The notes under the pieces are model-generated. The model worked only from the letters and a program-made list of their open reading frames with translations, was not told the origin of the DNA and searched no databases. Both the position numbers and the translations under genes were made by a program. Of a stretch of DNA of 26,161 nt, positions 2,591 to 13,765 are shown in pieces. The stretch spans positions 1 to 26,161 of IMG/VR virus record IMGVR_UViG_3300046010_000871, one strand, 5' to 3'. Within the stretch, counting starts at the first letter, position 1; every line of letters begins with the position of its first letter. The DNA is from a virus.

Positions 2591-2930
2591 TTTCCATAAC
2601 AGCAGGCGTAATCCATAGAGTGCCTTTTCCGTCTAGTTCTTCCAGAGACCTGTAGTAAACAAGTTCTTTATCAAGCCCCACTAGAGCAATAATGTCGCAG
2701 TATGTTACACCATCAATCTTAAACTTATAGACGTAGGTGTTTGTTGTAGACCGCTTTACTGCACACTTTGTACCCTTAACCTGTACTCGTAAGAACCCAG
2801 ATCCAGTATCAACTAATAAATCGTAGGGGGCGCCTTCATACGGGGTGCATATCGCGTAGCCCCGTTTAGCCATGTCATATCGGACTAACGCTTCAGCAGC
2901 GCGTCCGGTTTTATGAGTCTCAGCTTTAAT
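2445..2930 (-). CDS. Small PD-(D/E)XK-type endonuclease, probable ATT start
   Basis: Resembles the short PD-(D/E)XK endonucleases (I-Ssp6803I-like/PDDEXK_5 type). The core reads PYDLLVD followed by LRVQVKGTK, giving the conserved D and the Q-x-K pair, then DIIALV and VYYRSLEEL strands. The first ATG (2873) gives 142 residues, but the in-frame codons upstream encode THKTGRAAEALVRYD, which matches the first helix of the family and carries its usual Glu. No ATG, GTG or TTG lies between that stretch and the upstream TGA. The ATT at 2930-2928 overlaps the giant gene's TAA as TAATT, with GAGG seven bases upstream, and gives 161 residues. The last ~45 residues are Pro-rich and antisense to the integrase 3' end. 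It could serve DNA processing, exclusion or genome mobility; its target is unknown. Confidence 0.65.
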   Translation of the reverse strand: MKAETHKTGRAAEALVRYDMAKRGYAICTPYEGAPYDLLVDTGSGFLRVQVKGTKCAVKRSTTNTYVYKFKIDGVTYCDIIALVGLDKELVYYRSLEELDGKGTLWITPAVMETKCDFHLLVAVSKSLNPTPSKPPCVHSDIPHGCKPPLPLPSDGLTSSL

Positions 2931-5900
2931 TATTCACCCTCGCCTGTAGCGTATTCCACGAAACCCTTATTGCGACTATTGAACTGTACGCCGTTGGCTG
3001 TTTCTTTCTCACGCTTACGTTGTTCTGCAGGAGCTTTTAGTAGGTTGCTAATTGGTTGAACTTTAAAACCATACTCGCGTTTGAACCCTTGCATTTCCAT
3101 CCAGTGGTCTCTAACTTCTGCCATAGCATCGTAGTCGCCAGCTTTGTAGGCTTTAGCATAGTCATTCTTAAGTTCGTGGGTTCTACCATTAAAGAACTGT
3201 TCAAATTCATACTTCTTAGCTTGAGCCATCTGACGCACAGAATCTGATTCCGTTCTAATACCAACAGTTTTAAGTGCTGTATCCCATAATGTAATTTCTT
3301 CTGGAGATACTGTCATGTCACCTTTAGTATTAGTTACACCAGATGCCGCTTCTGAGATAGCTTTCATTGAAGACTTAATAACGCCCGGAGCTAAACCCTG
3401 TAACATTTTGTAGTAATTACCTTCGTTACCTTGTTTGATAGCATCTGCGAACTGAACACCAAGACCACCGATCATTGGGCCAGACAGAGCAACCAATGTA
3501 TTTGCATAATTATCTCTACCACTCACATTAAAGTCTTGGTATGGCATTATGCTCAACATCTGACCTGCGCCTACGTTGCCTGAAATATTGGCATTAAACA
3601 TCGCTGCAGGCACACCGTGCAGTAACAAGGCAGACAAGAAATCATCATCAATAGCGTTACGAACTTCTAACTCTAAATCTTTCTTATCATCATCCCCGCC
3701 CATCGCACTGAACGCTAGAGCAACTAAGTTAGCTGCAGGTAATCCCAAACCACCCGCCATAATCGCATGATGTGCTAATGTATATCTTAAAGCCCTGCCA
3801 GCAGCCCACTTACCTATATCAGTTTTACCATCAGCAGATTTACCTGCCATCATTGTTTTATATTCACGAACTAACAGCGACAACTGGATTAACTGGAATT
3901 TACGGAACTGTGTAACCATACGAGCAAACGCATTTTGGTTCATAAGACTTGGCGCATTAAAGTTACTATAGTCACCGTGAGTATTATCAATAACCTCTTT
4001 AGCGTACTGCACTGCTTTAGCGTGGTCGTTTGATTTAGATAGTTCTAATCTATAAGCTGCAGCAGCAGTCACTACGCGGTTCGTCATCTCAACCTTCTGA
4101 GCCAGCCCACGCAGGAAACTATCCATCTTAGATACTGCATGAGAGACTTTAGACTTACCTTGATGAACACGCGCACCTAATTCTTGAGTCAGAGTAATAT
4201 CCAAACGACCCATATCACGTAATTCGTGAAGTGCTTTAGATACATCTGCAGGTACACCCTCTAAGTCCATGAAGCCTGACTTGATATTGAAACTAGGCAT
4301 TTTCTTAAGCTCTTTATAAGCCTTGAAAAGTTGACCCATAGATTCGTTATACCCATGATTCTGTGCCATGTAAGGCTGTGACATCATTAAAGGCTGTGTA
4401 GAGTTATAGAAGTAATATGCTGGTTTTGTTAAGAGCATCCAGATAGAGTTAATACCCATCAACTTACCTACCAACGGAGAAGGGTCGTAGTTAAAACTAT
4501 TCTCATAACGCTTAACTAATTCGTTATACACATCCATCTTGCCACCACGAAGTGCGTTAGAGTTCAAAGCCTCTTTCTGCATAGTTCCGTATGCGTTGTT
4601 TACTTCTTTGTGGTGTTTTAAAACTGACAGATAGTGAGCATCTGCTTTGCCTTTAGATACGAACGCTTGGTATGTAGAGTCAGGGTTTAGACCAGAAATA
4701 GCATCTCTTTTAAGCTCTGATTTACGTGCGCTAGTTTCAGCAAGCGATGTTAGGTACAACTCTGTGATTAAGTTATTAAGTTTAGTAGCAGCATCAGAGT
4801 TCTTTTCTGCGGACATACGACGTAACTGCTCAAACGCTTGGAATGGTAAGATACCACTAGAGTTCATCTCTTGTTTTGCAGAAGCAATTACACCCTCTGC
4901 TGGGTATTTAGTACGTAGTTTACGAGCGATAGCTTTAGCAGACGCTTCAGAGTCAGTAAATTCAACCCAGAAGTGAGCCTCATCAGACTTCATTTCGTCC
5001 ATAGCCTTCTCATCCTGCGCTGCTTCAGCATCCATATAAGCCTGAGATTTAGCAACAACTACGTGAGAACCGACGCGACGCATAGAGGTATATGGGCCGT
5101 TTAACTCTGATAGTTTTCTTCCGTACATCTTACGGAACTTTTCTTTCTCTTTTTCTACTTTAGCTTTAGCCTCTGGAGTCTTAGCGGCATTTAGCTTTTC
5201 TTCGTAGATTTCATCCAAGTGTTTGTCTAGAAGCTTTTGTGTTTCTACGATTGTATTGTGTCCATGTTCAAACACCGCTTTAACAACCGCTTGCTCTTTT
5301 GCAGATAGCTTATTAAAGGCGTCGGCAGTAGTTGCATCAACCTCAACATCTTTACCATTAACTTGGAAGTCAGGCTTATAGCCCCACTTTTGACCCTTAG
5401 TAGAGTTTAGAATAAAGCCCCAAGTCTTTTGTTTCTCTGCTTCAGATAGCTTGTCAGATTCATTGGCGATAGCATCCACTTTAGCTTCAAATGCAATTCT
5501 TGAAACCTCACGGGCGTTTACTGCATCGTACCAACCTTGAGCAGAAGTAAGCGTGTCTTTAACCATCTCGATAAGGTGGCTAGTAAACATACTAGAGTGC
5601 AGACCTTTTTTAGCAATAGAGCCAATAGTATCGGCAACCCAATGAGCTGAATCTTGTGCATCTGTAGGTAGGGATTCAATGAACTTGTCTGTTTTAGAGA
5701 ACCGCATAGCACGATTTTCTTTACCCGTATCTTTAGCACCGATGACCACATTCTTAGGGTCGAACACCACGTAGTTGTAGGTTGACTCTTTAGGCTTCAT
5801 CAAGTCCGTATGTTTCTTCAACGCCCTCTCAGCAGCGGCTAAAGACTCTGTAGTGAGTTTAACTTGGTTGTCCGTGAAGTCATTTTTAACACGCTTGCGT

Positions 5901-8900
5901 GTCCAGTGGGCCAGTGCTTTTTTCGCGTGAGCTAGATCTTTCTCAGCCATTACATGCGCTATTGTTTTGGCGCCACGACTAAGTTCTTTATTGAACTGCC
6001 AATTACCACGACTAGCGTTATCTTCATACTTAACGCCTTTGATGCCCAATGAATCTAGATACTCACTAGAAGCTTTTTCTGAAGCGTCCTCATCAAACTT
6101 ACGCAGGAACTCAGCACCATTTGCAAAAGCCTTAGATAATTTGCCTTTGTATAGCTCTGAGGCGTATAGGGTATCCCAGTCACTAAGACTAACAGACCCC
6201 CTCAAATCAGCTTTAACCCGCTCTAGTGCTTCTTTAACTTTAGGGCTTTGCTCATCAAGAGTTCTGTCCCACATTAACCACTCATCATCTGCTACATTGA
6301 AGTCGGTATTGAATAGTGCCCCTCCACTAGAAGACTTATCGAAACTAAATTTATCAGGGTCAATGCGACCTATACTCTCGACCATATAGGGCTGATCCAT
6401 GTCTATATAGTTCTGTTTGATTTTGGCTAGCTCGCTGGCAGCGTTTCTAATATCACCTCGGATAAACCTAGCCACATGTCGGAGTATTGGCCCCATAGGA
6501 GTTTCATTGTCCTGAACGCTAATTCCATCATACATAAGCTCAGATTTTCTCGTAGCTCTATCTCTATACCCTTTAGCGACGCTATTCAAGTCGGCAAAGT
6601 ACTGACCGTAGGCAATCATGTCAGTGAATTTTTTATCGCCTTCTTTGCGACCACCCTCACCTGTACCGCGATGTGCATTAGAGTGTTTATAGAAGTTGCT
6701 TGGCCCGCCCTGCCATGTACCTTTTAACTCTAATCGAGCTGCGCCATAAGCCAAATCAACAACATCCTGTGCAGATAGCTTGTTCGGACTAACACCTAGT
6801 TTGTGCAGTGCAGTTTTAAATGCAGCCCACAGTGTGCGGAACCAACGGCTTAACTCACTGCTGTATTTCATAGCACTTGGGTTTATACCGCGCTTAACTG
6901 CTTCTTCGATAAAGTAAGCAATAGTTTCTGGAGCGTAGTCTGCGTCGTTTGTAACAGCAAGGTCTACTCGCGCTAACGCAGCTTTAGCAACCTCTGACTC
7001 TATAGAACCGTCATCTTTCTTAGCCCAATCAAATATTTTTGTTACCAGAGATTCATACTGCTTGTCTGTTAATAACCGCTCTAATCCAATATGCGCGCCA
7101 ACCTCATGCAGAAGTACGGCTAGTTCAGCGCCTTTAGGAATATTGCTGGCAATAAAGAACGCGTGTAACCCGTTTTTCGTTTCTGCGACCCAAGCCTGAG
7201 TGCCTTGTACGTCTTCTGATTTGAGTCTTCCTGATGCGACCGCTTCTGCGGCGGTATCATACACAGTAACCCGCCAGTTGTTTGCATTTCCAGTGATCTG
7301 TGCAACTACGCTCTTAATTTCGTCTGCGGTAGAACCTACCCGAGTGTCGTTCTTTGAGAATTTCTTAGTGTCTAGTGCTTCGGCTCCGGCAATATCGGCT
7401 TCTTCACTTGTTTTCGTGTCAACAACTTTTGCTTTTGGTTTAAGGCTTAGTGTTTTCTTAGGCGTATCTGCTTTAATTGCAGTCAGCCAAGCAGTGGCTT
7501 CCGCCATAACATCCTCGCCATTCATAGCGCGTTTAGCGTAGTCGGCTGCAATGTCTTTATGAAGCTTAGTATCTGTCTTGGATCTGGCAATTGCCTGTAA
7601 TGATTTGAATAGCTCTACTTCAGCGGAGCTTGCTCCTGCGTCGCTAGTTTCTGGTTTTGCGATTGTTGCTGTTTGCTTAGTAGACTTTCCTCCACTGGCG
7701 GTTTTCCCGTTTTTATGTACTCCAGTATCGCTTGGTCTTTGAACTTCTGCGGTACGCTCGGATCCAGAATCCACGCTGGGTACACTCCCCTTACCTTTTT
7801 CTGTTTCGGCGAACTTAGAAAGCTCGTTGTAGATTTCTTTGTAGATTCTGTCATTTATAACTCCGTCTTCATGTGCGATAAACGCTCTAGCCCACTGTGC
7901 GTGATACTTCTTAGGTAGTGGATTCTCGTCAAGCTCAGACCATTCTTCCATCGCGTCTGAAATATCTACCGCTTTCATAGCGGAACCATCAGAGTAAACA
8001 AACCCAGATTCACCGTCAATATCTTTGTTTGTGTCTTCACCTTCTACATCGTCCGCCACTTCTTCAGGCGCAGCCTGTAGCTCAACATCATTTTGTGCAG
8101 CGGTGTCTGCTATAGATTCCATACCAATTACATCAGCCGCACTAGAGTCCGGAGCAAAAGATTCTTCCGTTGTATCTAAGTCGTCAGATTCAGCACGAAC
8201 ATTCTCAGCGTCACTCCAAGAAGCATCACCGTTGCCTGTGCCTCTGGCAGTTAATCCTGCTTGTGCTGCTTGTGCAGCGGATACGGTTTGAACATCTGCT
8301 TCTGATTCGCCATGCAAACCTAAAATACGTTCTGCTGCATCTACAGGAATACCCATACGGCCCGCAGCTTTATGGATTAGATTAAGTGCCTTGTCTGCGC
8401 GCTTACGCATTGTTTCATGGCTAACCCCCGCTTCAGCACCCATAGCTCTTGTAGATGTAGGAACCATCTCAACTTCTGTGCCGTCTTCATTCAGCAACGG
8501 ATTACCTTCAGCATCTAATACTTGTTTCCAACCAGTGTCCTCATCGTTACGTACACCTCGTAATTGTTGCAGAGCCTCTAGGTCAGCTTTTGTAACTGTA
8601 GCTGTTAGCTGTGTAGAAGCTTTCTGTTTGAACGCGGCGATGTCTTCTGGTGAAGCATCTTTTGCAATAGGTGGTTCCGCTGTCGTTTCAAGGTTTGGTT
8701 CTGCATAAACAGCCGTTGATGGGGATAGTATAGCTACGAACTGTTTAACTATATTGTTGCGCTCTTTAGCGTTAGTACCTGCATTACTGTAGGCTTTAAA
8801 AACCGCATCTATTTGACCTTCATCAACCTTACCTTCTTCTGCGGCTTTAAGTACATAGCTAATAAAATCATCAGTAATTTTACCCCGAGTTTTAATATTA

Positions 8901-10228
8901 TGAGTTTCGCGTACCTGTTTAATAGGGTCTACTTCTTTGACCGCTTTTACTTGCTTACCCTGTGCAGGGATTGGTATGCCGTTATCGTATAGATATAAAT
9001 GATACGCATCAGTAGTGCTAAATGGTTTACCGTTCTCATCAGGCAAGACTACAGGGTTAGGTAACTTCTCATTGTATGCAGCACTTACGTCTTTTCTATT
9101 TACAGATGGTTTACCGTTTACGCCTAATGTTTTATCGTTAAAAGCTTGTACGTCTTTATCTTCGCGTAGGTCGATAGCTGCTTCACGTTCTGCAATTACT
9201 CTACGTGCTTCAATTATATCTGCAGCTTCTTGACCCTCTTTCATCCGAGCTTCTGGGTTAGGTGCAGTTAGCCCTGCTGCAGCACCTTTTAACATATCAA
9301 CTTGGCGTTTTTCTTCTAGGTCTCTAGCGATTGCAGCGTCTTTATTCTTCTGGCCTACGTAAGCACCAACACCAAACATACCACCGCCGACAGCACCAGC
9401 TACACCACCAGCCAAAGCGTTAATGCCGACTTCTTTAGTAAATGGATCTTCGCCACTACCGTATGCTTCAATCGGAGTTTGTACAATTTCTTCAAATGCT
9501 TCTTCTGCACTTGACTTAGCAATAGATTTAACCAATCCGCCTTTAGCTGCAGCATTAGCTAGACCTCTACGACCTAACGATTCAATACCCCCTAGACGCT
9601 CAACAGCACCTACAGCTAGAGCAGAACCGCCAGCTTTTAGTAAATCCAAGCCTGAGTTTTCACCTTTAGCTTCTTGAGCATCACGCATTTGTCCATAAGA
9701 CGGAAGACCGAAAGATGTTGTTTCTAATGCAGCGTTACCTACCGTTGCAGCTCTACTTGGTACCTGTGCTGCTTGAACACCACGAATAGCCCTATTGCCC
9801 CACGCTGCGACCTTAAGACCTGTAGTTGGAGCCATCATACCTAGTGCAGCACCGCCGATTTGTGAGATAGTGTTTAGCGGTTTGTTTACTAGATTACTAC
9901 CAATATTCTCTAGGGCATTGCCGTCGCCTTCCATAATGGTAATAGGGTTGCGTTGTGTAACTTCACGACCATAAAGCTCAACTGCGTTGTTGTTCTCAAC
10001 GCCCGGCAAATAATCGCCAGCAAGCTGACCAACACCCTGAACCAAACCACCTATAGATGATTTAAACGCAGTAGTAAACCCAGCATTATTTCTTGGAGCT
10101 ACGCCAAGAGCATTAGCAACTTCCTCGAAACTAGCGTTGTTGTGCTTGGCAAATATATCAACTATTTCTAAATCGGTCTTAGACTGAAGCTCTGGATGTG
10201 ATATTTTTAAGTCTGATATTGATGGCAT
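2930..10228 (-). CDS. Giant polyvalent-type internal virion/ejection protein
   Basis: At 2432 residues this is the largest gene here and is likely a virion protein injected with the DNA, the positional counterpart of T7 gp16. What is visible: Gly/Ala-rich hydrophobic stretches near residues 120-145 and 263-290; a helix-turn-helix-like segment near 592-625; a long acidic, Ser/Thr-rich linker at ~650-870; HEVGAH at 1041-1046 (HExGxH metallopeptidase-like, as seen in polyvalent proteins); a region ~1290-1490 with LDEQS, LGIKGVKYED and NYVVFDP, resembling the ADP-ribosyltransferase-like domain of phage polyvalent proteins; a Lys/Glu-rich helical region ~1530-1850; and an LPD38-like C-terminal part from ~1900, with a hydrophobic Gly-rich segment near 2147-2178. 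No lytic transglycosylase motif was found. The ATG is preceded by a weak GGAT. Domain names are from recall of family patterns. Confidence 0.8.
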   Translation of the reverse strand: MPSISDLKISHPELQSKTDLEIVDIFAKHNNASFEEVANALGVAPRNNAGFTTAFKSSIGGLVQGVGQLAGDYLPGVENNNAVELYGREVTQRNPITIMEGDGNALENIGSNLVNKPLNTISQIGGAALGMMAPTTGLKVAAWGNRAIRGVQAAQVPSRAATVGNAALETTSFGLPSYGQMRDAQEAKGENSGLDLLKAGGSALAVGAVERLGGIESLGRRGLANAAAKGGLVKSIAKSSAEEAFEEIVQTPIEAYGSGEDPFTKEVGINALAGGVAGAVGGGMFGVGAYVGQKNKDAAIARDLEEKRQVDMLKGAAAGLTAPNPEARMKEGQEAADIIEARRVIAEREAAIDLREDKDVQAFNDKTLGVNGKPSVNRKDVSAAYNEKLPNPVVLPDENGKPFSTTDAYHLYLYDNGIPIPAQGKQVKAVKEVDPIKQVRETHNIKTRGKITDDFISYVLKAAEEGKVDEGQIDAVFKAYSNAGTNAKERNNIVKQFVAILSPSTAVYAEPNLETTAEPPIAKDASPEDIAAFKQKASTQLTATVTKADLEALQQLRGVRNDEDTGWKQVLDAEGNPLLNEDGTEVEMVPTSTRAMGAEAGVSHETMRKRADKALNLIHKAAGRMGIPVDAAERILGLHGESEADVQTVSAAQAAQAGLTARGTGNGDASWSDAENVRAESDDLDTTEESFAPDSSAADVIGMESIADTAAQNDVELQAAPEEVADDVEGEDTNKDIDGESGFVYSDGSAMKAVDISDAMEEWSELDENPLPKKYHAQWARAFIAHEDGVINDRIYKEIYNELSKFAETEKGKGSVPSVDSGSERTAEVQRPSDTGVHKNGKTASGGKSTKQTATIAKPETSDAGASSAEVELFKSLQAIARSKTDTKLHKDIAADYAKRAMNGEDVMAEATAWLTAIKADTPKKTLSLKPKAKVVDTKTSEEADIAGAEALDTKKFSKNDTRVGSTADEIKSVVAQITGNANNWRVTVYDTAAEAVASGRLKSEDVQGTQAWVAETKNGLHAFFIASNIPKGAELAVLLHEVGAHIGLERLLTDKQYESLVTKIFDWAKKDDGSIESEVAKAALARVDLAVTNDADYAPETIAYFIEEAVKRGINPSAMKYSSELSRWFRTLWAAFKTALHKLGVSPNKLSAQDVVDLAYGAARLELKGTWQGGPSNFYKHSNAHRGTGEGGRKEGDKKFTDMIAYGQYFADLNSVAKGYRDRATRKSELMYDGISVQDNETPMGPILRHVARFIRGDIRNAASELAKIKQNYIDMDQPYMVESIGRIDPDKFSFDKSSSGGALFNTDFNVADDEWLMWDRTLDEQSPKVKEALERVKADLRGSVSLSDWDTLYASELYKGKLSKAFANGAEFLRKFDEDASEKASSEYLDSLGIKGVKYEDNASRGNWQFNKELSRGAKTIAHVMAEKDLAHAKKALAHWTRKRVKNDFTDNQVKLTTESLAAAERALKKHTDLMKPKESTYNYVVFDPKNVVIGAKDTGKENRAMRFSKTDKFIESLPTDAQDSAHWVADTIGSIAKKGLHSSMFTSHLIEMVKDTLTSAQGWYDAVNAREVSRIAFEAKVDAIANESDKLSEAEKQKTWGFILNSTKGQKWGYKPDFQVNGKDVEVDATTADAFNKLSAKEQAVVKAVFEHGHNTIVETQKLLDKHLDEIYEEKLNAAKTPEAKAKVEKEKEKFRKMYGRKLSELNGPYTSMRRVGSHVVVAKSQAYMDAEAAQDEKAMDEMKSDEAHFWVEFTDSEASAKAIARKLRTKYPAEGVIASAKQEMNSSGILPFQAFEQLRRMSAEKNSDAATKLNNLITELYLTSLAETSARKSELKRDAISGLNPDSTYQAFVSKGKADAHYLSVLKHHKEVNNAYGTMQKEALNSNALRGGKMDVYNELVKRYENSFNYDPSPLVGKLMGINSIWMLLTKPAYYFYNSTQPLMMSQPYMAQNHGYNESMGQLFKAYKELKKMPSFNIKSGFMDLEGVPADVSKALHELRDMGRLDITLTQELGARVHQGKSKVSHAVSKMDSFLRGLAQKVEMTNRVVTAAAAYRLELSKSNDHAKAVQYAKEVIDNTHGDYSNFNAPSLMNQNAFARMVTQFRKFQLIQLSLLVREYKTMMAGKSADGKTDIGKWAAGRALRYTLAHHAIMAGGLGLPAANLVALAFSAMGGDDDKKDLELEVRNAIDDDFLSALLLHGVPAAMFNANISGNVGAGQMLSIMPYQDFNVSGRDNYANTLVALSGPMIGGLGVQFADAIKQGNEGNYYKMLQGLAPGVIKSSMKAISEAASGVTNTKGDMTVSPEEITLWDTALKTVGIRTESDSVRQMAQAKKYEFEQFFNGRTHELKNDYAKAYKAGDYDAMAEVRDHWMEMQGFKREYGFKVQPISNLLKAPAEQRKREKETANGVQFNSRNKGFVEYATGEGE

Positions 10229-10236
10229 GTACTATC

Positions 10237-11799
10237 CTATCTGTTGAATATTCTGGTAGCTAAACCAGTGCCTTTAGGCCACTCTCCATATTTACGGTGA
10301 TACTCCTCGGGGGTTAGATCTTCTCCTGTAAGTGGGTCTGCAGAAACAGCGATTTGCGGATTGTAAGATGTAACATCTACATGCTTATTTGTCGGGACGA
10401 CATCACTCTGCGGTGCTAGGCTGTTAGGATCTTTTTTAGATAAGTCAAAATTAAGAGGCGGAGCTAATCCTAAATTACGCTGTAACGCAGAGAGTTCCTC
10501 TGGTTTAGCATTAGGGTTTTCAGTTATAAACTTATAGTACGCTTCCTGCGCTTTAGTATTGTCCTTGATGCCTGTACCTTTTGTAGAGCCCTTGAACGGT
10601 TTGCCATCCTCTGTAGTAACAGGACGAACTTGCATACCCCCCGTTTTTCCAGCGAATAATTCCATTGCTGTGCCATCTTCAGCATAAGTGATGTTCTTAT
10701 ACGCGTTGCTAACGCTTCTATCTTTAGCTGCACTGGCGTTGTATGCACCTACTTGGGCGTTAGTTAATAACCCTTTAAGAGCTAACTCTTTTACGTCTAG
10801 CTTGTATTTGTTCTGCAGATACTCGATGTCCGCCGTGTTCTTACGAGTTAATTCTTTGTCTTGAAGAATCATATGGGCAGTCTCTGCCTCTGCTTTTGAC
10901 AACTGCAAACCAAAAGTTCTATCGGATTGGCTGTCTGCAACAGCGTCACGTTTGTCTCTATATGCCTCTGCTTTCGCCTCTTTGTAATTCTGAGGATTTG
11001 CATATTTAAGAGCTTCACCAAAAGCAGAATCAAATGTAACCCCCTGCTGTGAGCCGACCACATTATTGTTCTTCATTTGAGTAACTTCATAAGTACCGTC
11101 ACCCAATTTTTTAAACCCGTGAGTAATACCATCTTTGTGCATCGGGTCTGTAGCATCTACAAGGGCTGTCATAGCTTCGTCTTCTGTAATCTTCCCAGTT
11201 GACAAGTCGTGTCTAATCTTAAATAACTTAGCTTCGTTCTGCGCGTACCCTAGCTTTAGATTAGCGTCTTCTAACTGCACTTGGCCTAGTTTGATCTGTT
11301 GTGCTTGCGCTGCTCGGCTTGATGCGTTGTTACGCATACTCTCAGCCATGTCTTCTTTGCCGTAGTTAGAGTAGATGTCAGCTTTTAAACCTAGTTTGTG
11401 TTGTGCGATGTCATCTGCAGTAAATGCGGTATCTTGAGTTCTATCACCTAAACGGTATTGTGTTCTTGGGGCTGTAGTAACGCCAGTAGCATCATCGGTA
11501 TAAACACCTTTATCAGAAACAGAGGGGCCTGTAACACCACGAAGTCCACCAGAGGCGTCTTCATAGGCACCCATATCTGCGTTCCAAGTCTCACCCGCTT
11601 TAGGGCCGTAAGTATCGTTCAACGACTGTATCTGCTCTGGCGTATACTCATTTCCTGTGGACTGGTCTACCTTATTAGCGTCTTTAAGTTCCGACTGCAT
11701 TGATGAGTTTCTGTACGCCATTCCTAACTTGCTACCCAGTTCTATCCCATCGGCAAGCTCGGTCATCCAGTTATTACGTCTGCCTCTGTTTCTAGCCAT
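10237..11799 (-). CDS. Putative internal virion protein (520 aa)
   Basis: No confident family. The protein is hydrophilic and mostly helical, with Gln/Ala/Lys-rich coiled-coil-like stretches (around residues 155-200 and 270-345) and a Gly/Pro-rich C-terminus with DPLTGEDLTPEEYHRKYGEW. Its place between the giant protein and the 290-residue Ala/Gly-rich protein matches the order of ejection proteins in many podoviruses (gp14-, gp15-, gp16-like), so a periplasmic or core ejection component is the best guess. The ATG has a strong GAGGAG ribosome binding site inside the upstream enzyme gene and overlaps its stop (ATGGCTAG). It ends in TAG 8 bp before the giant gene's start. Confidence 0.65.
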   Translation of the reverse strand: MARNRGRRNNWMTELADGIELGSKLGMAYRNSSMQSELKDANKVDQSTGNEYTPEQIQSLNDTYGPKAGETWNADMGAYEDASGGLRGVTGPSVSDKGVYTDDATGVTTAPRTQYRLGDRTQDTAFTADDIAQHKLGLKADIYSNYGKEDMAESMRNNASSRAAQAQQIKLGQVQLEDANLKLGYAQNEAKLFKIRHDLSTGKITEDEAMTALVDATDPMHKDGITHGFKKLGDGTYEVTQMKNNNVVGSQQGVTFDSAFGEALKYANPQNYKEAKAEAYRDKRDAVADSQSDRTFGLQLSKAEAETAHMILQDKELTRKNTADIEYLQNKYKLDVKELALKGLLTNAQVGAYNASAAKDRSVSNAYKNITYAEDGTAMELFAGKTGGMQVRPVTTEDGKPFKGSTKGTGIKDNTKAQEAYYKFITENPNAKPEELSALQRNLGLAPPLNFDLSKKDPNSLAPQSDVVPTNKHVDVTSYNPQIAVSADPLTGEDLTPEEYHRKYGEWPKGTGLATRIFNR

Positions 11800-12475
11800 T
11801 CAAACTCTCCTCAATAGCGCGGCTAAGCGCATCTTTTCTTGTCTTGTATTCTTTAAATAGTATAGGGTGTTCTGTAGCGCAGTGACCTCTAATATCCTTT
11901 AAGTCTGCATCAAACGCCGTACAGTCGTAGCAGTCCATAGAGCTGTGTTTAAATCTGAAGTGATCTGGTAAGTCCATATGAGCTGCGTTGTAGGATAAAA
12001 CATCTTCAGTAGACCAAGTTTCAATAGGTTGTACAAACGTAACACCATTCAGGACGGTTCCATTTACTGCAGTAGACTTGCGGGACTCATCCAGTCTTTG
12101 GCCTCTGATAAGTGTAGTTATGTTGTTATCGGCACAGTAGTTAAGTAGTGGAAGGGCGATGTTTTCGTAGCAGCATCCTAGGTAGGATTGGATCGTTACT
12201 GATTTCTCTCCTGTAATTGCCTGTCCTATACCAGTCCAATCTATAGGAACTATGGCTGAAGGTATTCCGTGTCTTTCGTTCTGCGCTACGCGGTCTATGT
12301 TAAGTTCTACAAAGTTAGGGCACATCTCTTTTGCAAGTTCTATGGTTTTTAATAGTTCTGGGTAGTTCTTGCCTGTATTTACCCATACCACCTGAATATC
12401 GGCTAGTTGGTCTTTATAGAGCCACAAACACGCCCATGAGTCTTTACCTCCAGAAAATGCTAGCGCCGCTACCAT
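11792..12475 (-). CDS. APS/PAPS-reductase-like PP-loop enzyme with Fe-S Cys motif
   Basis: A member of the phosphoadenosine phosphosulfate reductase family (adenine nucleotide alpha-hydrolase fold). The PP-loop SGGKDS lies at residues 8-13, followed by WVNTG (31-35) and RGQRLDESRKS (124-134), the substrate-binding RxxES-type motif. It has CC at 101-102 and CYDC at 182-185, the CC-X~80-CXXC pattern that ligates the [4Fe-4S] cluster in assimilatory APS reductases. The C-terminal catalytic ECGLH-type motif of CysH is absent; the protein ends with a Lys/Arg-rich helix. So it may activate a substrate by adenylation or thiolation (nucleic acid modification is one possibility) rather than reduce sulfate. 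It starts at TAATG with the upstream virion gene and overlaps the next gene, so it is co-translated with ejection proteins. Confidence 0.85.
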   Translation of the reverse strand: MVAALAFSGGKDSWACLWLYKDQLADIQVVWVNTGKNYPELLKTIELAKEMCPNFVELNIDRVAQNERHGIPSAIVPIDWTGIGQAITGEKSVTIQSYLGCCYENIALPLLNYCADNNITTLIRGQRLDESRKSTAVNGTVLNGVTFVQPIETWSTEDVLSYNAAHMDLPDHFRFKHSSMDCYDCTAFDADLKDIRGHCATEHPILFKEYKTRKDALSRAIEESLNG

Positions 12476-13347
12476 TACATTGCTGTCCCGACAGCCATCG
12501 CACCTGTGCCTATTAGCCCCATAATTCCGCTACCGCCATCACTCTGACCATTAATCTGATTAGACTGACCTTGAAGGTTTGCATAGCCGTTGAATAGGCC
12601 TGTGTGCATTTGAGTTTGATTCTGATAACCTTGACCTACAAAGTTGGCGTAACCTAGACCGCCCTGTGCTCCTGTGTTGGAGTTATTAACCGCTGAGTTA
12701 CCTTGGTTGAGAGATGTTGCCGCTGTTTGACCTGCGACGTTCTGCATACCACGACCTGTAGCCACTGCACCCGCACGGAGTGCGATACCTTGATTCTTAG
12801 CTTGAAGTCGAGCATTAGTAGCCCCACCAGCGGCAGAAGCCGCACTAGACAAACCAGCAGCTTGTTTTGCAGCAACGAACTTAGCAGAATTAGGATTGAT
12901 ACCCATAGATGCTAGGTTACGTTCTAGCCCTGCCTGTTGAATTGCACTTTGTTGGCGTACATCGGCTACAGCCTTACCAGCTTGAATAGCTTGGTCTTCG
13001 ACACCGCCGTAGTTGTTGGCTTCAGCGAGAGAGCGTAGTTCTGTTGGTTTGTAATTGTCTTCCCAGAACTTATTTTGATCTGCTGCGCGCTGGTCAGAAG
13101 CCTTCATAGACTCATACTGCGCCGTACCAACCTTGTTTGCCATATCATACAACTGCATTAGGCGAGGTTTGGCTTCTTCGTATTGGCGAGTTCTAAAGGC
13201 TAAATCTGCTTTTGCAGAGCGCTCCGATGCGTTCGCCATTGCAATCATACCGGCAGTATAATCAGGAGCGTCACCGCCGCCTTTACCCCCACCATGAAGT
13301 GTAAATACGTTTTCGGCGAGCCATAAGAAGTCGAATAATTTAAGCAT
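12475..13347 (-). CDS. Putative internal virion protein, Ala/Gly/Asn-rich (290 aa)
   Basis: Resembles the small internal virion (gp14-like) proteins that sit upstream of larger ejection proteins. It has a short hydrophobic N-terminus (LKLFDFLWLAENVF) and a Gly/Lys/Asp patch, then an Ala-rich helical region, the motif NLASMGINPNSAKFVAAKQ, a Gln/Asn/Gly-rich section and a hydrophobic Gly-rich C-terminus. The start chosen is the ATG at 13347, which overlaps the GNAT stop by 8 bp (ATGCTTAA). An ATG at 13371 would add MTIVNGLN but overlaps that gene further. The stop overlaps the next start as TAATG. Confidence 0.7.
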   Translation of the reverse strand: MLKLFDFLWLAENVFTLHGGGKGGGDAPDYTAGMIAMANASERSAKADLAFRTRQYEEAKPRLMQLYDMANKVGTAQYESMKASDQRAADQNKFWEDNYKPTELRSLAEANNYGGVEDQAIQAGKAVADVRQQSAIQQAGLERNLASMGINPNSAKFVAAKQAAGLSSAASAAGGATNARLQAKNQGIALRAGAVATGRGMQNVAGQTAATSLNQGNSAVNNSNTGAQGGLGYANFVGQGYQNQTQMHTGLFNGYANLQGQSNQINGQSDGGSGIMGLIGTGAMAVGTAM

Positions 13348-13765
13348 GTTTAATCCATTTACAATCGTCACGGTGCAGTTGATAGATAATTAAATCATTA
13401 GGGCAAGCACCATCTTTAACCCTACCCACTTCAGTAAAACCTACGTGTTCAGTAAACCTTATAGAGTCAGCGTTATCTGCAGACACAGTGTTCACAACTA
13501 CCTTGCACCCTGCCTGATTAAATACGTAATCAAAGCACATCAATAAAAATGATTTAGTCAGCCACCGTCTACCTAATCCAGCACAGTGCATTGAACATCT
13601 AGCGTTGGAACTAAACCCTTCAAATATCACGCCGGCAATTAACTCACCGTTTTCTTCAATACCTAAAGCCTGAAATGAAGACTCAGGAAAGAACGCAGAT
13701 TCTCTGCCAATACGAGGCCAAATCCAGTCGTTAATGCGCTGTTTTTCTATGGTGTAGGTCTTCAT
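13340..13765 (-). CDS. GNAT-family N-acetyltransferase of phage type
   Basis: Acetyl-CoA-dependent transferase fold. ENGELIAGVIFEGF forms the central strands, HCAGLGRRWLTKSF is the acetyl-CoA pyrophosphate-loop region, and DNADSIRFTEHVGFTEVGRVKDG is the typical motif B with N-x-x-S and GF. The 141-residue length is usual for the short phage group that often lies beside internal virion genes. The acceptor substrate is unknown. This is the first gene after a 45-bp gap that holds a promoter-like sequence, so it may head a second transcript toward the ejection genes and the nuclease. No clear ribosome binding site precedes the ATG. Confidence 0.8.
   Translation of the reverse strand: MKTYTIEKQRINDWIWPRIGRESAFFPESSFQALGIEENGELIAGVIFEGFSSNARCSMHCAGLGRRWLTKSFLLMCFDYVFNQAGCKVVVNTVSADNADSIRFTEHVGFTEVGRVKDGACPNDLIIYQLHRDDCKWIKHA

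Follow-up and report, generated by a model that had tools for sequence, protein, structure and literature searches.

A podovirus family of PP-loop proteins with APS-reductase-type cysteines, a canonical ATP loop, and no reductase tail

APS and PAPS reductases bind APS or PAPS, and cleavage of ATP is unnecessary for them. The PP-loop enzymes DndC and SspD have known ATP pyrophosphatase activity, and PP-loop enzymes known to transfer sulfur are believed to keep one iron open. Cys146, Cys280, and Cys283 of DndC match cluster ligands of APS reductase (PMC12193691), and the fourth DndC cluster ligand is debated (PMC12193691; PMC10853773). In addition to being an active pyrophosphatase, SspD binds its cysteine desulfurase (PMC7188994). 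Phage cysH is a frequent entry among auxiliary metabolic genes, where it is interpreted as a viral contribution to sulfate assimilation (e.g., see PMC10914622). The paper on Burkholderia phage JC1 assigns the product of one such gene, gp65, a probable part in sulfate reduction that it does not put to a test (PMC9144972).

The DNA analyzed here, referred to below as the window, comprises a linear 26-kb virus record from IMG/VR (IMGVR_UViG_3300046010_000871, positions 1 to 26,161), with genes for capsid, tail, and internal virion proteins and for an integrase. It also carries a gene for a PP-loop protein related to JC1 gp65, and we compared this protein and its relatives with the systems described above.

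Motifs, conservation, and distribution of the phage PP-loop protein

The PP-loop gene and the neighboring features of the window are listed in Table 1. Pfam and PHROG both name the protein a PAPS reductase domain protein, and its match to PF01507 (E = 4.8e-12) scores 46.7 bits against a cut-off of 22.5. The PP-loop signature is FSGGKDS, at residues 7 to 13. The protein has eight cysteines (residues 16, 52, 101, 102, 114, 182, 185, and 199), which include a CC pair at 101-102 and a CXXC at 182-185 with a spacer of 79 residues between them, and there is no CG-x-H motif anywhere in the 227 residues. The ATG of the gene overlaps the TAA of the upstream gene by one base, while the start of the downstream gene, at 11799, sits inside the PP-loop gene and gives an 8-bp overlap with its stop. 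The initial annotation, made from the letters of the window, had described a CC-X79-CXXC pattern without an ECG-x-H tail in a gene locked by stop/start overlaps, and the residue positions and both overlaps agree with that description.

Table 1. Features of the window around the PP-loop gene
Feature	Coordinates	Strand	Remarks
PP-loop Fe-S protein gene	11792..12475	minus (12475 to 11792)	227 aa, ATG start, PF01507/PAPS_reduct fold
Upstream virion structural protein	12475..13371	minus	phrog_8003, ...GGGKGGGDAPDY... motif; homologous slot JC1 gp64 present in virion
Downstream gene, probable internal/ejection protein	10237..11799	minus	520 aa; synteny with BcepIL02 gp69 / JC1 gp68
GNAT acyltransferase	13340..13765	minus	phrog_4470; regular companion, one gene upstream of virion protein
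Giant protein	2930..10228	minus	2432 aa; C-terminal part DarB-like (phrog_10089); ends same operon; order as BcepIL02 gp70
Small PD-(D/E)XK endonuclease-like protein	2445-2873	minus	PF11645; between integrase and giant DarB-like gene

This PP-loop Fe-S family is widespread and occupies the same slot of podovirus late operons, including those of Burkholderia Bcep22-like phages. An alignment-based search of IMG/VR found at least 229 encoding stretches, 80 of which were kept, and ten viral contigs encode relatives at 49 to 63% identity. Relatives are also present in ten phage records, eight of them from Burkholderia phages (BcepIL02, JC1, DC1, CSP3, and BcepMigl among them), at ~31 to 32% identity, and prophages of Nitrosovibrio, Caballeronia, Limnohabitans, Comamonas, and further bacteria encode the protein as well.

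Each of the 104 clade members that were aligned has FSGGKDS. C101, C102, C182, and C185 are likewise kept in all 104; some of the search patterns used to find relatives contained these four cysteines themselves, but relatives that came from the FSGGKD pattern or from a plain tblastn search have the four as well. Loss of the cysteine set in homologues, for which the initial annotation had proposed an alignment as a check, was not observed. The other four cysteines of the window protein are not universal among the 104. A CC-X70-90-CXXC pattern arises in 0.19% of shuffles of the window protein, and a chance origin can be dismissed because the four cysteines are conserved in every aligned member. 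The median dN/dS across 457 close pairs of the family is 0.07; the protein is therefore under purifying selection.

Several individual relatives depart from the common form. The relative in Aeromonas phage phiA008, found by plain tblastn, has SGGRDS and CC-X77-CMTC. Its deposited CDS (start 8136; locus L191:7854-8669) omits the PP-loop, which is contained in the upstream-extended open frame, and judging by that frame the annotated start is probably wrong. In Nitrosovibrio tenuis Nv1 (L099), the N-terminal PP-loop is absent from the open frame and CC and CXXC are kept; this gene looks like a degraded prophage copy. The Limnohabitans sp. T6-5 prophage (L103:5335-6678) encodes a class I SAM methyltransferase domain (PF08241) fused N-terminal to the PP-loop Fe-S domain, the sole such fusion seen. 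The combination of SGGKDS, CC, and CXXC is also found in other PF01507 proteins, from archaea and Firmicutes. Those of Nanohaloarchaea and Thermococcus (L112, L125, and L131) add extra ferredoxin-like cysteine motifs and are without CG-x-H.

Comparison with reductases and with sulfur-transfer enzymes

AlphaFold prediction, with 36 sequences from the window and IMG/VR as input, gave a model with a pLDDT of 95.7 and a pTM of 0.90. Its top structural matches are PAPS/APS reductases, with Z of 12.3 to 14 over 159 to 172 residues (e.g., 2goy, with Z of 12.3 over 165 residues and an rmsd of 3.4). GMP synthetases are close behind, QueC (2pg3) also ranks high, and LarE, NcsA, and TtuA are lower. The structure comparison proposed in the initial annotation thus places the fold closest to PAPS/APS reductases, but the model alone cannot choose between these and GMP synthetases, since we treated Z differences of <1 as ties. 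A close PDB homologue was also sought by sequence, which returned only a PAPS reductase (E = 0.015 with the single sequence and 1.5e-6 with the profile). In the tree, the phage family is a separate clade with support of 100/99. This clade lies nearer to APS/PAPS reductase and CysD than to DndC/SspD with weak support (92/74), a deeper placement that is unsure because of long branches. Isoelectric points fail to separate the groups.

Assimilatory APS reductase (CysH, TIGR02055; PDB 2goy and 7lhs) resembles the phage protein in its fold, in the positions of CC and CXXC, and in the G-x-R region. When the phage family is aligned with APS reductases by hhalign (probability, 97%), CC pairs with CC and CXXC with CXXC. 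Together with the conservation described above, these profile and fold comparisons bear out the APS-reductase-type Fe-S ligand set that had been predicted from the window protein. In contrast, the PP-loop, the C terminus, and the residues next to the cysteines differ. Three genuine APS reductases, whose source genomes also harbor related prophages, show SLAAED, SFGAED, or SLGAED at the PP-loop position and an ECGLH end, whereas the phage family has the canonical SGGKDS and no ECGLH. It has also lost the basic residues after CC and CXXC: in the profile alignment, N and mostly Ile/Val stand where APS reductases have RK after CC, and CTR is replaced by CTA. The position mostly taken by Ile/Val is that of the APS reductase Lys four residues past CC (K144 of the Pseudomonas enzyme). 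E. coli PAPS reductase (CysH, 1sur/2o8v) is alike in fold (Z of 13.3 to 13.5) but, with an SFGIQA loop, CGLH present, and CC/CXXC absent, it shows the opposite pattern.

The ECG-x-H catalytic Cys is absent from the window protein and from all relatives checked. As a candidate substitute nucleophile, C16 is kept in 91% of members but is replaced in the Bcep22-like ones, and no other candidate is universal. The window protein falls far below the NCBIfam reductase cut-offs (22.7 of 235.3 bits for TIGR02055 and 23.8 of 165.1 bits for TIGR00434). A degenerate loop fits enzymes that need not cleave ATP, and at the level of sequence the contrast between this loop in true reductases and the canonical FSGGKDS of the phage family is the decisive new point against a reductase. 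These motifs give no support to the usual label of "PAPS/APS reductase" for the phage clade, a label that also appears in the paper on JC1. BcepIL02 gp67 and JC1 gp65, the "PAPS reductases" of the Bcep22-like (Lessievirus) phages, are true homologues (~32% identity) with the same motifs and the same gene order; they form a divergent subgroup, and their database name claims a reductase activity that the motifs do not support. Our literature search found no report of a phage PF01507 protein without ECGLH, and the literature that we found contains no homologue of the phage clade demonstrated as a PAPS reductase and no biochemical datum on any clade member.

The DndC (8), SspD (4), and TtcA sequences that we compared have SGGKDS or SGGRDS without the reductase tail, and DndC and SspD have a single Cys and a CXXC at positions comparable to those of the phage CC and CXXC. 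The likeness to SspD extends to a common stretch after CXXC with a conserved HP, seen when the Bcep22-like subgroup is aligned with SspD (hhalign, 98%), and the SspD profile matches BcepIL02 gp67 at 1e-12, with 46 bits in two stretches. The window protein reaches 14.2 bits with the PADLOC SspD profile, over residues 5-47 only, compared with ~300 to 460 bits for a clear SspD, and it has no match to TIGR03183 (DndC) at E 0.1. Unlike SspD and DndC, it has CC in place of the single Cys, stands alone, and falls in a separate clade. The tRNA thiolases TtcA, NcsA, and TtuA are similar in having a PP-loop and a [4Fe-4S] cluster (NcsA 6scy, Z of 10.9), but their Cys spacing differs (in E. coli TtcA, CxxC at 122 and 210) and no tRNA-binding domain was recognized in the phage protein. 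By these tests, the phage clade belongs to none of DndC, SspD, and APS reductase.

Genomic neighborhood and place of action

The gene order in the window is that of BcepIL02: GNAT, virion protein, PP-loop protein, internal proteins, and DarB-like giant. An MGK..PPxPDY-type virion protein is encoded immediately upstream of the PP-loop gene in 88 loci. Overlaps were counted by ORF geometry, as the upstream protein of the window diverges too quickly for homology counting: of 99 loci, 86 have an upstream stop/start overlap of exactly 1 bp, and 48 of 92 overlap the downstream gene by 8 bp. The 520-aa downstream protein has no PHROG or Pfam match, and from the synteny given in Table 1 we infer that it is a virion protein.

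A phrog_4470-like GNAT is encoded within 4 kb upstream in 67 of the 97 loci with enough flank, and among the other 30, 18 belong to distant relatives that the clade does not include. In one locus (L088:4609-5094), a different GNAT (PF00583) fills the slot of the missing one; a relative of this second GNAT was found in L059, again in that slot, and in three more loci, which suggests nonorthologous replacement. We considered Mom-type DNA modification by the neighboring GNAT and rejected it, since hhalign of the GNAT family against phage Mu Mom gave a probability of 0.7% and PHROG assigns them to separate groups. Mx8, LASTA, and MW202489 have the GNAT and no annotated PP-loop gene in the slot, which is a place for optional genes.

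The initial annotation had suggested that the enzyme might act in the injected cell. Proteomics of CsCl-purified JC1 virions detected gp64, gp67, gp68, and gp69 but did not detect the homologue gp65 (PMC9144972). Although non-detection of gp65 is no proof, its absence among detected neighbors speaks against that suggestion, and delivery of the PP-loop enzyme with the phage DNA, or action from inside the virion, is disfavored. The enzyme would instead be translated alongside the virion proteins late in infection and act in the producing cell.

Possible functions of the phage enzyme

Based on the motif, profile, and fold comparisons, we favor, with a probability of roughly 0.55, an ATP-dependent PP-loop adenylating enzyme with an APS-reductase-type Fe-S site that possibly transfers sulfur and is not a sulfonucleotide reductase. 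That it is an adenylating Fe-S enzyme and not a reductase is quite probable; sulfur transfer specifically is a more tentative proposal, with somewhat less than an even chance. The protein would be an N-type ATP pyrophosphatase with a [4Fe-4S] cluster held by the APS-reductase-type Cys set. Because the ATP loop is retained in every full-length aligned member, adenylation would be the expected activity, and the canonical PP-loop makes it our best guess: ATP would be bound at FSGGKDS and a substrate adenylated with release of pyrophosphate, as by DndC, SspD, or TtcA. The cluster beside the active site could then hold or deliver sulfur from a host cysteine desulfurase, and nucleic acid may be the acceptor. 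Several observations count against this proposal. With four Cys ligands the cluster could be saturated, as it is in APS reductase and unlike the one Cys plus CXXC of DndC/SspD, and the weakly supported tree places the clade nearer to APS/PAPS reductase and CysD. Cysteine desulfurase, DndD/DndE, and SspB/SspC are not listed in the annotation of the complete genomes BcepIL02 and MW202711. Judged from neighbor clusters, no phosphorothioation partner cluster recurs within ~6 kb of the loci, but host genes could fill that role.

Four Cys ligands in keeping with a saturated cluster, the canonical PP-loop, and the high rank of QueC (2pg3) and GMP synthetase in the fold searches would also suit an adenylating enzyme whose cluster is merely structural or electrostatic and whose chemistry does not involve sulfur (amidation, ligation, or modification of a small molecule, tRNA, or protein, QueC-like or GMP-synthetase-like), and the methyltransferase fusion in the Limnohabitans prophage points the same way. 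We consider this unlikely, since the nearest characterized SGGKDS relatives with Cys at these positions, DndC and SspD, are sulfur enzymes, and no recurrent ammonia source or ligase partner lies beside the gene. An auxiliary metabolic APS/PAPS reductase that aids host sulfate assimilation, as annotated in the JC1 paper and often presumed for phage cysH, agrees with the PF01507 and PHROG names, the best structural matches, and the type of Cys ligands. It is nonetheless improbable given a missing nucleophile that no universal Cys replaces, an ATP-type PP-loop unlike that of reductases, and the lost basic residues. Finally, the 1-bp coupling, the recurrent virion protein family upstream, and the GNAT in most phage loci could mean that the enzyme, perhaps with the GNAT, modifies the translationally coupled virion or ejection protein. 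Such coupling also fits plain late co-expression, the GNAT also occurs in phages without the PP-loop gene, and the MGK..PPxPDY-like virion protein, with its characteristic start, is kept in such phages too (Mx8 and MW202489), on which ground we rejected it as a dedicated substrate; this explanation is very improbable.

A role other than sulfonucleotide reduction, as proposed in the initial annotation, is thus favored by the missing tail, and the canonical PP-loop, which had not been argued there, adds to this. Novelty is modest, because phage genes of this kind are already catalogued under the reductase name and the same motif combination exists elsewhere in PF01507; the analysis is of value for proposing that an annotation in wide use be corrected, in a form that can be tested. 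For a common podovirus clade, the missing nucleophile and the ATP-cleaving site argue against a reductase, and an inexpensive test would show whether many annotations should stand. If sulfur transfer is its chemistry, the adenylating Fe-S enzyme of these phages would be related to the enzymes of DNA phosphorothioation or tRNA thiolation while standing alone. In a bolder and rather doubtful extension, the family would be a branch of adenylating Fe-S enzymes peculiar to phages. Late in infection, this branch would carry out an undescribed sulfur (or other) modification, perhaps with the GNAT, whose target is phage DNA, host tRNA, or virion protein and which protects from host defense. If such a branch exists, a good part of the "viral cysH" now read as sulfur assimilation is something else.

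A different PF01507 protein, with SGGKDS and a single Cys plus CXXC, is encoded ~29 kb from the prophage homologue on contig 40 of Caballeronia zhejiangensis (L147 and L101), and the same genome also carries an SspD (L165).
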